64,000 bases of DNA from Mitsuaria sp. 7. Its GTDB lineage: Bacteria; Pseudomonadota; Gammaproteobacteria; Burkholderiales; Burkholderiaceae_C. The stretch is from the NCBI RefSeq assembly GCF_001653795.1, contig NZ_CP011514.1:2395715-2459714 (forward strand), given 5' to 3'. The notes under the pieces were generated by a model, which did not search any database, had not been told where the DNA came from, and worked only from the letters and a program-made list of their open reading frames with translations. Of this stretch, positions 22,555 to 30,868 are shown piece by piece (the stretch's first letter is position 1; each line of letters opens with the position of its first letter). The position numbers were made by a program, and so were the translations under genes.

Positions 22555-23055
22555 TCAATGCTTGATCGTGCGATTCCCGTACGCCGGACGCGAGGGCCGG
22601 ATCGTCGGCGCGTTGCTCCCCGCCGCGAAATTGCCCGGTCTTGCCGCCAGCAATACCGCCAGCAGGTCGGTCACGTTCAGCGGCTTGTAGAGCAGGCGGT
22701 TGAACCCCGCCGCGCCCGCCGACTCGTCGGTGATCTCCGGACCGCCGCCGGTCAGGCACACGTACATGGTGTGACGGCCGGCCTCGGCGTCGATGAGCTT
22801 GGCCTCGGACACGACCTCCAGGCCGTTCATGTCCGGCATGTCGAAATCGACGAACACCAGCTCCGGCTTGAACAGCTTGAGCAGGCGCAGGCCCACCCGG
22901 CCGCTGTAGGCCACCGAGGTCGCGCAACCGTAGCAGCGGAACAGCTCGCTGAGGCTGCGCGCGCCTTCCGGATCGTCGTCGATCACGAGGACCCTCAACG
23001 CGTGCGGCGAGGCCTGCGCGGCGTGGGGTGGCGCGTGAGGCGATGTATCGGACAT
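22555..23055 (-). CDS. Single-domain response regulator (receiver only)
   Basis: A 166-residue protein that is little more than a CheY-like receiver: acidic pocket DDDPE (26-30), phosphorylation site Asp70 in VDFDMPDMNG, Thr in CLTGGG and Lys in YKPLN. Flexible tails lie at both ends and there is no output domain. The ATG at 23055 follows GGAG by 9 bases. It is divergent from the poly-HAMP kinase with 203 bases between starts. It is probably an intermediate or output of that kinase's phosphorelay, acting by protein-protein contact. Confidence 0.9.
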   Translation of the reverse strand: MSDTSPHAPPHAAQASPHALRVLVIDDDPEGARSLSELFRCYGCATSVAYSGRVGLRLLKLFKPELVFVDFDMPDMNGLEVVSEAKLIDAEAGRHTMYVCLTGGGPEITDESAGAAGFNRLLYKPLNVTDLLAVLLAARPGNFAAGSNAPTIRPSRPAYGNRTIKH

Positions 23056-23258
23056 CGAAGTCTTCTCCCTGAATGCAACACGACGAAACAGCGGTCCGCG
23101 CAGCACAAAGCGCGTCCGGCATCCGCCGTCCGTCCATGCGAGGAGAACGGCAAACTGCGTGCCCGCCTCCGCCCTCCTAAACCCAGGGCCCGCCAGCGTT
23201 GTCGCACGGCTAAAGTCGATCGGTTGAGCCGCGATCAGACGGCCGTCGGGAGTCCGCA

Positions 23259-28439: not shown

Positions 28440-30868
28440 GCGCCCTCTTCGACGGCTACGCGACGCCGGACGCGGCGGAGCGCGCCAGCATCCTGATCGT
28501 GGACGACCTGCCGGAGAAGCTGCTCGTCTTCGAGACCATCCTGGCCGACCTCGACCAGCACCTGGTCATCGCGCGCTCGGGCAGCGAGGCGCTGCGCGAG
28601 GTGCTGCGCCAGCAGTTCGCCGTGATCCTGATGGACGTCAACATGCCGGGCATCGACGGCCTGGAGACGGCCCGGCTGATCCGAGGCTACCGGCGCTCGG
28701 CGCACACGCCCATCATCTTCGTCACCGCGTATGCGGACGAGCTGCAGACGGCGCAGGGCTACTCGCTGGGCGCGGTCGACTACATCCTCTCGCCGGTGAT
28801 CCCCGACGTGCTGCGCAGCAAGGTGCGGGTCTTCGTCGACCTGTTCATCATGCAGCAGCGGCTGCGCCAGCAGGCGCTGGAGCGCATCGCGATCGCGCGC
28901 GCCGAGGCCGCGCAGCGCGCCGCCGAGGAGAACACGCGGCGCTCCATCTTCCTGGCGCAGGCGGGTCGCGAACTGGCGGACTCGCTGGACGCGGACGTCG
29001 CGATGCGACGCCTGCTCGCGCTGCTGGTGCCCAACTTCGCGCCGCGCGCGCTGCTGTGGCTGCGCGACGCGGGCCACGGCCACGAGCGCGTGCTGCGCGG
29101 CGACGCTCCGACCGCGGCCGGCGAGCCCGGCCTGTTCGTCGAAGGCCGCGAGCAGATGCTGTCCGAGGTGCTCTACAACGCCACGCGCGACGCGATCGAG
29201 CAGATGATGCCGGCCCTGCTGCCCGGCCCCTCGGCCGCGACGGCAGCGATACCGGCGATACCGGCGATGACGACCTTCGCCCCCACCCTGCCGCCCGGCA
29301 CCTCCGACGACGAGCCCCCGCCGCGCGCGCCGCTGCGCCGCGACACCGCCAGCGGCGTCGTGCTCCCGCTGGTGGCCGGCGAGCGCGTGCTCGGCGGCCT
29401 GCTGCTGGCCGACCCGCATCAGCCCCCCGACTGGCCGACGCTGGAGGAACTGGCGGGCCGCGCCGCGATCGCCTTCGAGAACGCGCGGCTGTACGGCGCG
29501 CTGCAGGCCGAGATCGTCGAACGCCGACAGGCCGAGGCCGGACTGCTCGAAGCGAGCCGGCGCAAGGACGAGTTCCTCGCGATGCTGTCGCACGAGCTGC
29601 GCAATCCGCTGGCGCCGATCCGCAATGCGATCGAGGTCATGCGGACGCTGTCCGATGCGTCCGGTCGCGGCGGAGACGTCGAGAGCAACAGCAACAGCAA
29701 GAGCAACGACGACATGCGCGATCGCGACCGCCGCCTCGGCGAGGCGGTCGCGGTGACGGACCGCCAGGCCCGGCACCTGACGCGGCTGGTCGACGAGCTC
29801 CTCGACGTGGCGCGCATCAGCCAGGGCAAGATCGTGCTGAAGAACGAGACCGTCGATCTGCGCGACATCGTGCGCCACGGGTTGGAGCCGGTGCAGTCGC
29901 TGATCGCGGCGCAGGGGCAGCAGTTGCGCCTGCAACTGCCCGATCGCCCGGCGCGCGTGCGCGGCGACGCGGCACGGCTGATCCAGGTCGTGACCAACCT
30001 GCTGCACAACGCGTGCAAGTACACCGGCACCGAAGGCTGCATCGAGCTGGCGCTGGTGCAGGAGGACACGGATCACACGGGCCACACGGGTCAAATGGGT
30101 CACTCGAGCCATGCCGGCCACGAAGGCGCCTTCGTGCTGACCGTGCGCGACAACGGACGCGGCATCGATGCTTCGTTGCTGCCCCACGTGTTCGACCTGT
30201 TCGAACAGGGACCGCGCGGACTCGATCGCAACCAGGGCGGCCTGGGCGTCGGCCTGACGCTGGTGCAGCGTCTCGTGCAGCTCCATCACGGGCAGGTGGT
30301 GGCCCGCAGCGAAGGTCCCGGCCACGGCTCGGAGTTCACGGTGCGCCTGCCCGCCGCCCTGGACGAGACGCAGGAGGCACCCGTCGAGGCACCAGTCGCG
30401 CCCGTCGTTCCCGTGGAGCGCGTCGCGGCCGCTGACAGTCGCGAGGACGTCCGTGAGGACGAAGGTCCCTGCCGCGTGATGGTCGTCGACGACAACCGCG
30501 ACGCGGCGGACTCGATGGCGGTGTTCCTCGAACTTGCGGGCTTCGAGACCACGGTGCAGCTCGACGGTCCCAGCGCGCTGGACGCCGCGACGTCGTGGGC
30601 GCCGCAGGTCGTGCTGCTCGACATCGGCCTGCCCGGCCTGGACGGGTACGAAGTCGCCCGCCGCCTGCGCACCCTGCCCGGCGGGACGGACTGGCTGCTG
30701 ATCGCGCTCACCGGCTACGGCCAGCAGGACGATCGCCGCCGTGCGCATGAAGCCGGCTTCGATGTGCACCTGGTCAAGCCCGCCGATCCGGATGCGGTGG
30801 TCGAACTGATCCAGGAGTGGCGGCAGCGCGATCGCAGCGCAAGACCCGCGGAAACAGCGACGCGCTGA
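28430..30868 (+). CDS. Hybrid histidine kinase: receiver-GAF-kinase-receiver
   Basis: An 812-residue soluble kinase with receivers at both ends. The N-terminal receiver (about 18-140) has Asp69 in LMDVNMPGIDG. A coiled coil and GAF-like region follow (about 150-370). HisKA has His388 in SHELRNPLAP, and HATPase has NACKYTG, DNGRGIDASLL and GGLGVGLTLV. The C-terminal receiver has Asp731 in LLDIGLPGLDG. Low-complexity inserts (SNSNSKSND; a His/Gly/Thr-rich loop in the ATPase domain) are visible. The ATG overlaps the stop of the poly-HAMP kinase gene by 10 bases. The N-terminal receiver is well placed to accept phosphate from that kinase, which would make a kinase-to-kinase relay. Confidence 0.92.
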   Translation: MPLSALFDGYATPDAAERASILIVDDLPEKLLVFETILADLDQHLVIARSGSEALREVLRQQFAVILMDVNMPGIDGLETARLIRGYRRSAHTPIIFVTAYADELQTAQGYSLGAVDYILSPVIPDVLRSKVRVFVDLFIMQQRLRQQALERIAIARAEAAQRAAEENTRRSIFLAQAGRELADSLDADVAMRRLLALLVPNFAPRALLWLRDAGHGHERVLRGDAPTAAGEPGLFVEGREQMLSEVLYNATRDAIEQMMPALLPGPSAATAAIPAIPAMTTFAPTLPPGTSDDEPPPRAPLRRDTASGVVLPLVAGERVLGGLLLADPHQPPDWPTLEELAGRAAIAFENARLYGALQAEIVERRQAEAGLLEASRRKDEFLAMLSHELRNPLAPIRNAIEVMRTLSDASGRGGDVESNSNSKSNDDMRDRDRRLGEAVAVTDRQARHLTRLVDELLDVARISQGKIVLKNETVDLRDIVRHGLEPVQSLIAAQGQQLRLQLPDRPARVRGDAARLIQVVTNLLHNACKYTGTEGCIELALVQEDTDHTGHTGQMGHSSHAGHEGAFVLTVRDNGRGIDASLLPHVFDLFEQGPRGLDRNQGGLGVGLTLVQRLVQLHHGQVVARSEGPGHGSEFTVRLPAALDETQEAPVEAPVAPVVPVERVAAADSREDVREDEGPCRVMVVDDNRDAADSMAVFLELAGFETTVQLDGPSALDAATSWAPQVVLLDIGLPGLDGYEVARRLRTLPGGTDWLLIALTGYGQQDDRRRAHEAGFDVHLVKPADPDAVVELIQEWRQRDRSARPAETATR

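Follow-up and report, generated by a model that had tools for sequence, protein, structure and literature searches.

Among described systems, AskB-AskC (MXAN_6735-6734) of Myxococcus xanthus consists of a soluble group III (poly-HAMP) hybrid kinase and a second hybrid kinase encoded immediately downstream, and AskB binds AskC with a mean dissociation constant of 0.7 uM (PMC7643160). We compare with it a locus in a 64,000-nucleotide stretch of DNA (the window, whose numbering is used throughout) from Mitsuaria sp. 7, a member of the Roseateles/Mitsuaria group with a genome of 6.09 Mb. In the window, the gene for a soluble 1726-residue poly-HAMP hybrid histidine kinase (23259..28439, plus strand) is followed by the gene for an 812-residue hybrid kinase that begins with a receiver, here called kinase 2 (28430..30868, plus strand). 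As in the Ask system, the second hybrid kinase lies directly downstream; the two genes overlap by 10 bases (28430..28439, plus strand), the ATG of kinase 2 at 28430 preceding the TGA of the first gene, which ends at 28439, just as the initial annotation of this DNA had read it. The two pairs are likened by gene order and published description, not by sequence, and the role of the Ask proteins in development and in the response to ambruticin has no known counterpart here. On the evidence given below, the poly-HAMP kinase probably controls kinase 2 by acting on the N-terminal receiver of the latter.

Control of a kinase through an N-terminal receiver, as proposed here, has been described elsewhere. 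In Leptospira, phosphorylation of the N-terminal Rec activates LvrB and is ascribed to the upstream kinase LvrA; LvrB differs from kinase 2 in its Rec-DHp-CA build without a C-terminal receiver, and its output is LvrC, a Rec plus anti-sigma protein (PMC13269768). Kinase 2 likewise carries an N-terminal receiver with its Asp ahead of the kinase core. In the CheA3-CheS3-CheY3 system of Rhodospirillum centenum, the hybrid kinase CheA3 phosphorylates REC1, the N-terminal receiver of the second kinase CheS3, and the receiver of CheA3 itself has been proposed to be a sink, comparable to the sink or gate role considered below (PMC3868531). CheS3 is an HWE kinase, as are 5 of the 42 kinase 2 proteins scanned here; unlike the window pair, the first kinase is a CheA, its effect is inhibitory, and the second receiver of CheS3 lacks the Asp (PMC3868531).

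The poly-HAMP kinase has relatives in design as well. OsaA of Streptomyces coelicolor is a large kinase that has no transmembrane helix and carries a receiver along with more than 10 HAMP domains; it is encoded adjacent to its regulator OsaB. Unlike kinase 2, OsaB is a receiver plus coiled coil and not a kinase, and the role described for the system is in osmoadaptation (PMC9739842). The same source knows of no histidine phosphotransfer (HPt) protein for OsaA-OsaB and describes the signalling route of bacterial poly-HAMP kinases such as OsaA as unclear (PMC9739842). The fungal group III hybrid kinases (Nik1, Drk1, TcsC) share the repeated HAMP array, and the group has no transmembrane region (PMC7643160); for Drk1 a pseudo-receiver has also been described (PMC6433957), comparable to the degenerate receiver of the poly-HAMP kinase here. 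Unlike the bacterial pair, the fungal kinases act through the HPt protein Ypd1 and the HOG pathway. We know of no downstream receiver-kinase gene for them.

Pairing of the two kinase genes in Pseudomonadota

Relatives of the poly-HAMP kinase were sought with a HAMP-only query (residues 100-720), so that the neighbouring gene could not bias the search; except in the genus search, scoring was limited to the 5 to 10 top candidates of each genome. The distribution is patchy: poly-HAMP was found in 12 of the 16 genus genomes, and in 17 of 120 genomes sampled from the family, 12 of 150 from the order and 13 of 249 from the phylum, with the window's genome included in each count. At 46 loci, the 3' end of the poly-HAMP gene was present with room behind it. 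A receiver-first gene lay directly 3' of the poly-HAMP gene (its receiver within 250 bases of the stop) in 43 of the 46, and in 32 of the 35 outside the genus. The initial annotation had named synteny as a check, genes always unlinked in related genomes being the outcome that would speak against a relay; for the two kinases this is clearly not what was found.

The loci L007-L084 came from a search with kinase 2 as query, which is biased for pairing; L007, L008, L010-L016, L019 and L020 are counted in the 46, the same contigs, matched by their length, having been recovered by the HAMP query, and L035, L037 and L049, found with kinase 2 only, are outside the 46 and enter only the receiver tree described below. 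Also outside the 46 are L124, L212 and L231-L234, where the 3' end of the gene is off the stretch; L213, where the contig ends 192 bases past the gene; and L268, L271 and L283, which are split contigs with poly-HAMP-type receivers before the receiver-first gene. Close relatives (such as L201 and L230) were counted separately.

The surroundings of the pair are little shared between loci. Outside the genus, a flank protein was common to 17 of 595 locus pairs (E<1e-30), and at the same threshold to 20 of 385 pairs that join a genus locus to an outside one; the latter were mostly tripartite-transport binding proteins at 30-42% identity, together with ORFs (open reading frames) from one end of L196. 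The flanks of loci outside the genus showed no isocitrate lyase. Adjacency in 43 of 46 loci in differing surroundings thus suggests that the pair mostly moves as a unit. The start of kinase 2 was taken to be the ATG at 28430 (a mechanical ORF list begins at a GTG further upstream), and an ATG at -10 is kept in all 11 genus loci examined (the window, L007, L008, L010-L014, L019, L020 and L200); in L015, from another genus of the same family, the start is GTG.

When the downstream proteins were scanned with Pfam, all 42 that could be scanned consisted of a receiver plus a kinase (the 43rd, at L020, is cut by the contig end). The kinase behind the receiver was of the HisKA type in 36, HWE_HK in 5 (L203, L205, L206, L208, L209) and HisKA_3 in one (L186); the middle part was GAF, PAS or uncalled. 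Six of the proteins have no receiver after the first, 33 have one and three (L196, L198, L228) have two. What stays constant downstream is therefore the receiver and not the type of kinase.

The N-terminal receiver of kinase 2

In the window, this receiver (28490..28825, plus strand; Pfam and alignment) has Ser at the position of the conserved Lys. It was compared with its counterparts in 45 rows, namely the 46 loci minus L181, with L185 and L190 included. All 45 retain the Asp, both acids and the Thr/Ser, and the conserved Lys is kept in 11 and lost in 34, where it is replaced by Ser (23), Val (9), Thr (1) or Ala (1). A control set was assembled from 58 loci (L235-L292, the window's included), the best matches that searches of the phylum and the family gave for this receiver domain. 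Lys was lost in 19 of the 27 poly-HAMP-tied receivers and in none of the 31 not seen tied to poly-HAMP (Fisher p ~2e-9, a value uncorrected for relatedness that overstates independence). L283, which is preceded by poly-HAMP-type receivers, was for that reason moved to the tied group; L282, from a poly-HAMP genome and truncated at a contig end, was left among the 31 others. Three loci outside L235-L292, namely L017, L046 and L048, had first been marked as lacking poly-HAMP and were found to follow poly-HAMP-type receivers. In the family, the best receiver match reached 1e-40 in 12 genomes (the window's included), all among the 17 with poly-HAMP; in the other five poly-HAMP genomes it reached only 1e-28 to 1e-33. 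The control set also holds receiver-first genes preceded by ORFs not recognised as poly-HAMP, a wider class of tandem genes (L239, L243, L246, L249, L250, L253-L255, L257-L260, L262, L291).

In a tree of 89 receiver rows, which is built on few columns and has L282 and L283 labelled as controls, 33 of the 45 poly-HAMP-linked rows fall in one clade (100/96). This clade unites HisKA and HWE versions and holds Lys-less rows and no Lys-bearing row; the remaining 12 poly-HAMP-linked rows lie outside it, five of them among the controls. In LvrB, alpha5 extends into the helix governing the kinase (PMC13269768), so loss of the Lys may touch the expected output route. It is possible, and we put this forward tentatively, that most poly-HAMP-tied N-terminal receivers form a distinct kinase-controlling class in which acceptor and metal site are kept and the Lys was discarded in one clade, mostly for Ser or Val. 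Phosphorylation by the neighbour would be read by a different mechanism, for instance as a long-lived mark or as release of a tonic clamp, and the kinase behind would be swappable between families.

Both poly-HAMP kinases and kinases controlled by a receiver have been described before, and so has one pair of this kind (Ask). The near-regular pairing of poly-HAMP and receiver-first genes across Pseudomonadota seems to be new, as do the exchange of the kinase family behind a retained receiver and the Lys loss in the N-terminal receiver of kinase 2. No description of any of these three features was seen in the literature covered, which mostly excludes subscription journals.

Architecture of the kinases and the neighbouring lone receiver

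The poly-HAMP protein, read from its ORF, Pfam matches and a simple hydrophobicity scan, has the order HAMP/HAMP_2 array, GAF, HisKA, HATPase and three consecutive receivers, all coordinates here being on the plus strand. The array (23526..25418, outer limits approximate) contains, by motif count, six units of 92 residues (276 bp) at exact spacing, plus an atypical first part; the units are tandem repeats with 64-93% DNA identity between them. By the same count, which misses divergent units, there are 6 or 9 units in the genus and up to 13 elsewhere, and such varying number is what unequal recombination predicts. The GAF domain (25458..25871; PF13185, GAF_2, residues 734-871) is followed by HisKA (26106..26309) and HATPase_c (26451..26819), both called by Pfam, and the phospho-acceptor His in HisKA is present at all 46 loci. 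Receiver 1 (27204..27578, limits approximate) has, in the window, E-N in its acid pocket rather than two acids, and its Asp is present at all 46 loci; receiver 3 (28083..28418; Pfam, residues 1609-1720) has the full catalytic set. Between them lies a degenerate middle receiver (27573..28061, limits approximate), whose acid pocket is lost here; hhalign gave it a probability of 96.9 against the window's five other receivers, a Pfam run on the segment alone gave no match, and the segment is receiver-like in the orthologues at L196, L203 and L211. The N-terminal multi-HAMP array and the receivers after the kinase core are those of group III kinases, as is the apparent lack of a transmembrane segment: in the simple scan, the top 19-residue Kyte-Doolittle mean is 1.67 and falls inside receiver 1.

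Kinase 2, by ORF and Pfam, has the order receiver-HisKA-HATPase-receiver, with HisKA at 29564..29827 (residues 379-466), HATPase_c at 29963..30355 (residues 512-642) and a C-terminal receiver with the full catalytic set at 30473..30814 (limits approximate). A GAF match is under the cut-off. By eye, a helix-like linker follows the N-terminal receiver, and in the window a weak GAF region stands before the kinase core; orthologues with no called sensor domain (such as those at L211 and L184) fit the LvrB-type receiver-helix-DHp layout better. Pfam called no HPt in the poly-HAMP kinase, kinase 2 or the lone receiver described below, and 7 HPt matches were found elsewhere in the host genome. One kinase 2 orthologue, at L228 (3546-6089), has an HPt fused at its C-terminal end, a hint at an output route. 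Screening with NCBIfam placed, for each of the three window proteins, none of the best 25 families (of 147, 148 and 44) above the cut-off.

The initial annotation had described the long poly-HAMP kinase with a lone receiver divergent from it, and two kinase cores; the ORFs lie where it put them, Pfam recovers the HAMP array, and HisKA and HATPase are present in both kinases. Its five intact receiver Asp sites stand as far as the Asp goes, which is present in all five; full intactness does not, given the E-N pocket of receiver 1 and the Lys missing from the N-terminal receiver of kinase 2; the sixth, degenerate receiver was not in its count. Its statement that there is no DNA-binding output agrees with Pfam, which called no such domain with confidence. 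Two partial matches lie inside the HAMP repeats, to SpoIIID (30.5 bits against a cut-off of 27, without any single passing stretch) and to HTH_6 (19.8 bits against 28.3). AskA and AskB have the same kind of partial matches, and AskB bound DNA in vitro (PMC7643160); DNA binding by the array, though conceivable, was not adopted from these matches. A strict His-Asp-His-Asp phosphorelay is not borne out by the locus, which by Pfam is without an HPt.

The lone receiver (22555..23055, minus strand; 166 residues, full catalytic set, read as an ORF) most likely starts at 23055, since the ORF reaching 23259 opens with TTG. It is divergent from the poly-HAMP gene, 203 bases away. A promoter scan of 22950-23350, around this gap, showed no sigma-70-like site, and an inverted-repeat scan of 23040-23275 gave one repeat with 77% complementarity. 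A relative of the lone receiver is found in 15 of the 16 genus genomes. It is kept in three (G154, G158, G159) of the four genus genomes without poly-HAMP, the fourth (G157) having neither, and in G164 it stands apart from the kinase pair. In G154, G158, G159 and G164, the lone receiver, 77-83% identical to the window's by tblastn, lies within ~210 bases of isocitrate lyase on the same strand (L308-L311); in the window, it is separated from isocitrate lyase (33135-34433) by the kinase pair and an unknown gene. The pair was therefore either inserted at this place or lost from it. Outside the genus, no relative of the lone receiver was seen beside the pair; at L189, a different lone receiver is divergent from the poly-HAMP gene. 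In the genus, then, the lone receiver is a standing neighbour of isocitrate lyase. It is a neighbour of the kinases by position, and was rejected as a conserved member of the pair.

Other genes lie nearby. A further hybrid kinase, PAS-GAF-GAF-HisKA-HATPase-receiver, is encoded on the minus strand at 16997-19723, ~2.8 kb past the lone receiver. A 706-residue ORF at 30908-33028 has no match in Pfam or NCBIfam; similar ORFs (57-63%) are present downstream of kinase 2 in L007, L009 and L014; the other genus loci that were searched gave none.

Proposed signalling between the two kinases

Control of kinase 2 through its N-terminal receiver is the best reading of these data, since that receiver is the constant piece. 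Of the relay between kinases that had been proposed for this locus, kinase-to-kinase control is thus favoured by the pairing and by the constancy of the receiver; the transfer itself we still infer, together with coupled synthesis, binding, the direction and sign of phosphotransfer, the signal and the output. In such a scheme, the HAMP array and GAF domain of the poly-HAMP kinase would serve to sense a condition inside the cell, osmotic or carbonyl stress being suggested by analogy only. Both kinases would be made together from their overlapping genes. The target of the poly-HAMP kinase would be the N-terminal receiver of kinase 2, whose Asp it would most likely phosphorylate. By way of the helix behind it, this receiver may determine how active kinase 2 is, and kinase 2 may signal onward via its C-terminal receiver, unlinked HPt and regulator proteins, or both. 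The other receivers of the poly-HAMP protein could act as internal sinks or gates.

Several observations weigh against this reading. At L181, no receiver-first gene was present in the fetched stretch, and at L185 and L190 the receiver-kinase lies 3.6 kb and 1.6 kb downstream, respectively, and is not adjacent. A receiver-first gene after a hybrid kinase is not peculiar to poly-HAMP: in 14 of the 31 control loci, the ORF directly before such a gene has the same orientation and carries a receiver resembling the last poly-HAMP one, and a kinase core was seen in 10 of these upstream ORFs, the other 4 being cut by the end of the fetched stretch. The downstream receivers do not form one clade overall and require 5 changes on the tree, so the partner was recruited more than once. 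Loss of the Lys could mean a receiver without the usual switching. In a mirror-tree comparison, the poly-HAMP kinase core and the N-terminal receiver gave a correlation of 0.47 (34 loci) or 0.50 (28-locus set), and the kinase core of kinase 2 scored 0.61 on the same 28 loci; being positive but unspecific, the correlation was set aside as support for the choice of partner.

The main rival to phosphotransfer is binding without it, which we regard as unlikely. The two kinases would form a stable complex in which the N-terminal receiver is mainly a docking or dimerisation module, Lys loss uncouples it from phospho-switching, and each kinase is regulated through contact with the other, the model proposed for complexes of AskA, AskB and AskC. 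The loss of Lys in 34 of 45 receivers would fit such a complex, and the three Ask proteins do bind pairwise in vitro, with a receiver-receiver contact between AskA and AskC seen by two-hybrid (PMC7643160); docking alone, however, would not need the Asp and both acids, which all 45 retain. Still less probable is a pair of parallel, co-expressed hybrid kinases that share an unlinked HPt or regulator as their target, without phosphotransfer from one to the other. Each has a full kinase core and a C-terminal receiver, HPt matches occur elsewhere in the genome (7), and the L228 orthologue carries an HPt of its own, but this arrangement leaves unexplained why a constant receiver should precede an exchangeable kinase.

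Least credible, and in our view very improbable, is the three-gene relay of the initial annotation, with the lone divergent receiver as output. In its favour, the catalytic set of that protein is full, eleven of the twelve genus genomes with poly-HAMP, the window's included, have it next to the pair, and L189 has its different divergent receiver. Against this, G154, G158 and G159 keep the lone receiver though they lack the pair, and in G164 it lies apart from the pair, adjoining isocitrate lyase in all four; loci outside the genus showed none of its relatives beside the pair; its part in the relay is accordingly not upheld.

Control of kinase 2 by the poly-HAMP kinase is thus the reading we prefer. 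The pairing in 43 of 46 Pseudomonadota loci names a partner for the poly-HAMP kinase, directly testable by phosphotransfer, and the Lys-less receiver offers a natural test of the role of the conserved Lys when the output is a kinase.

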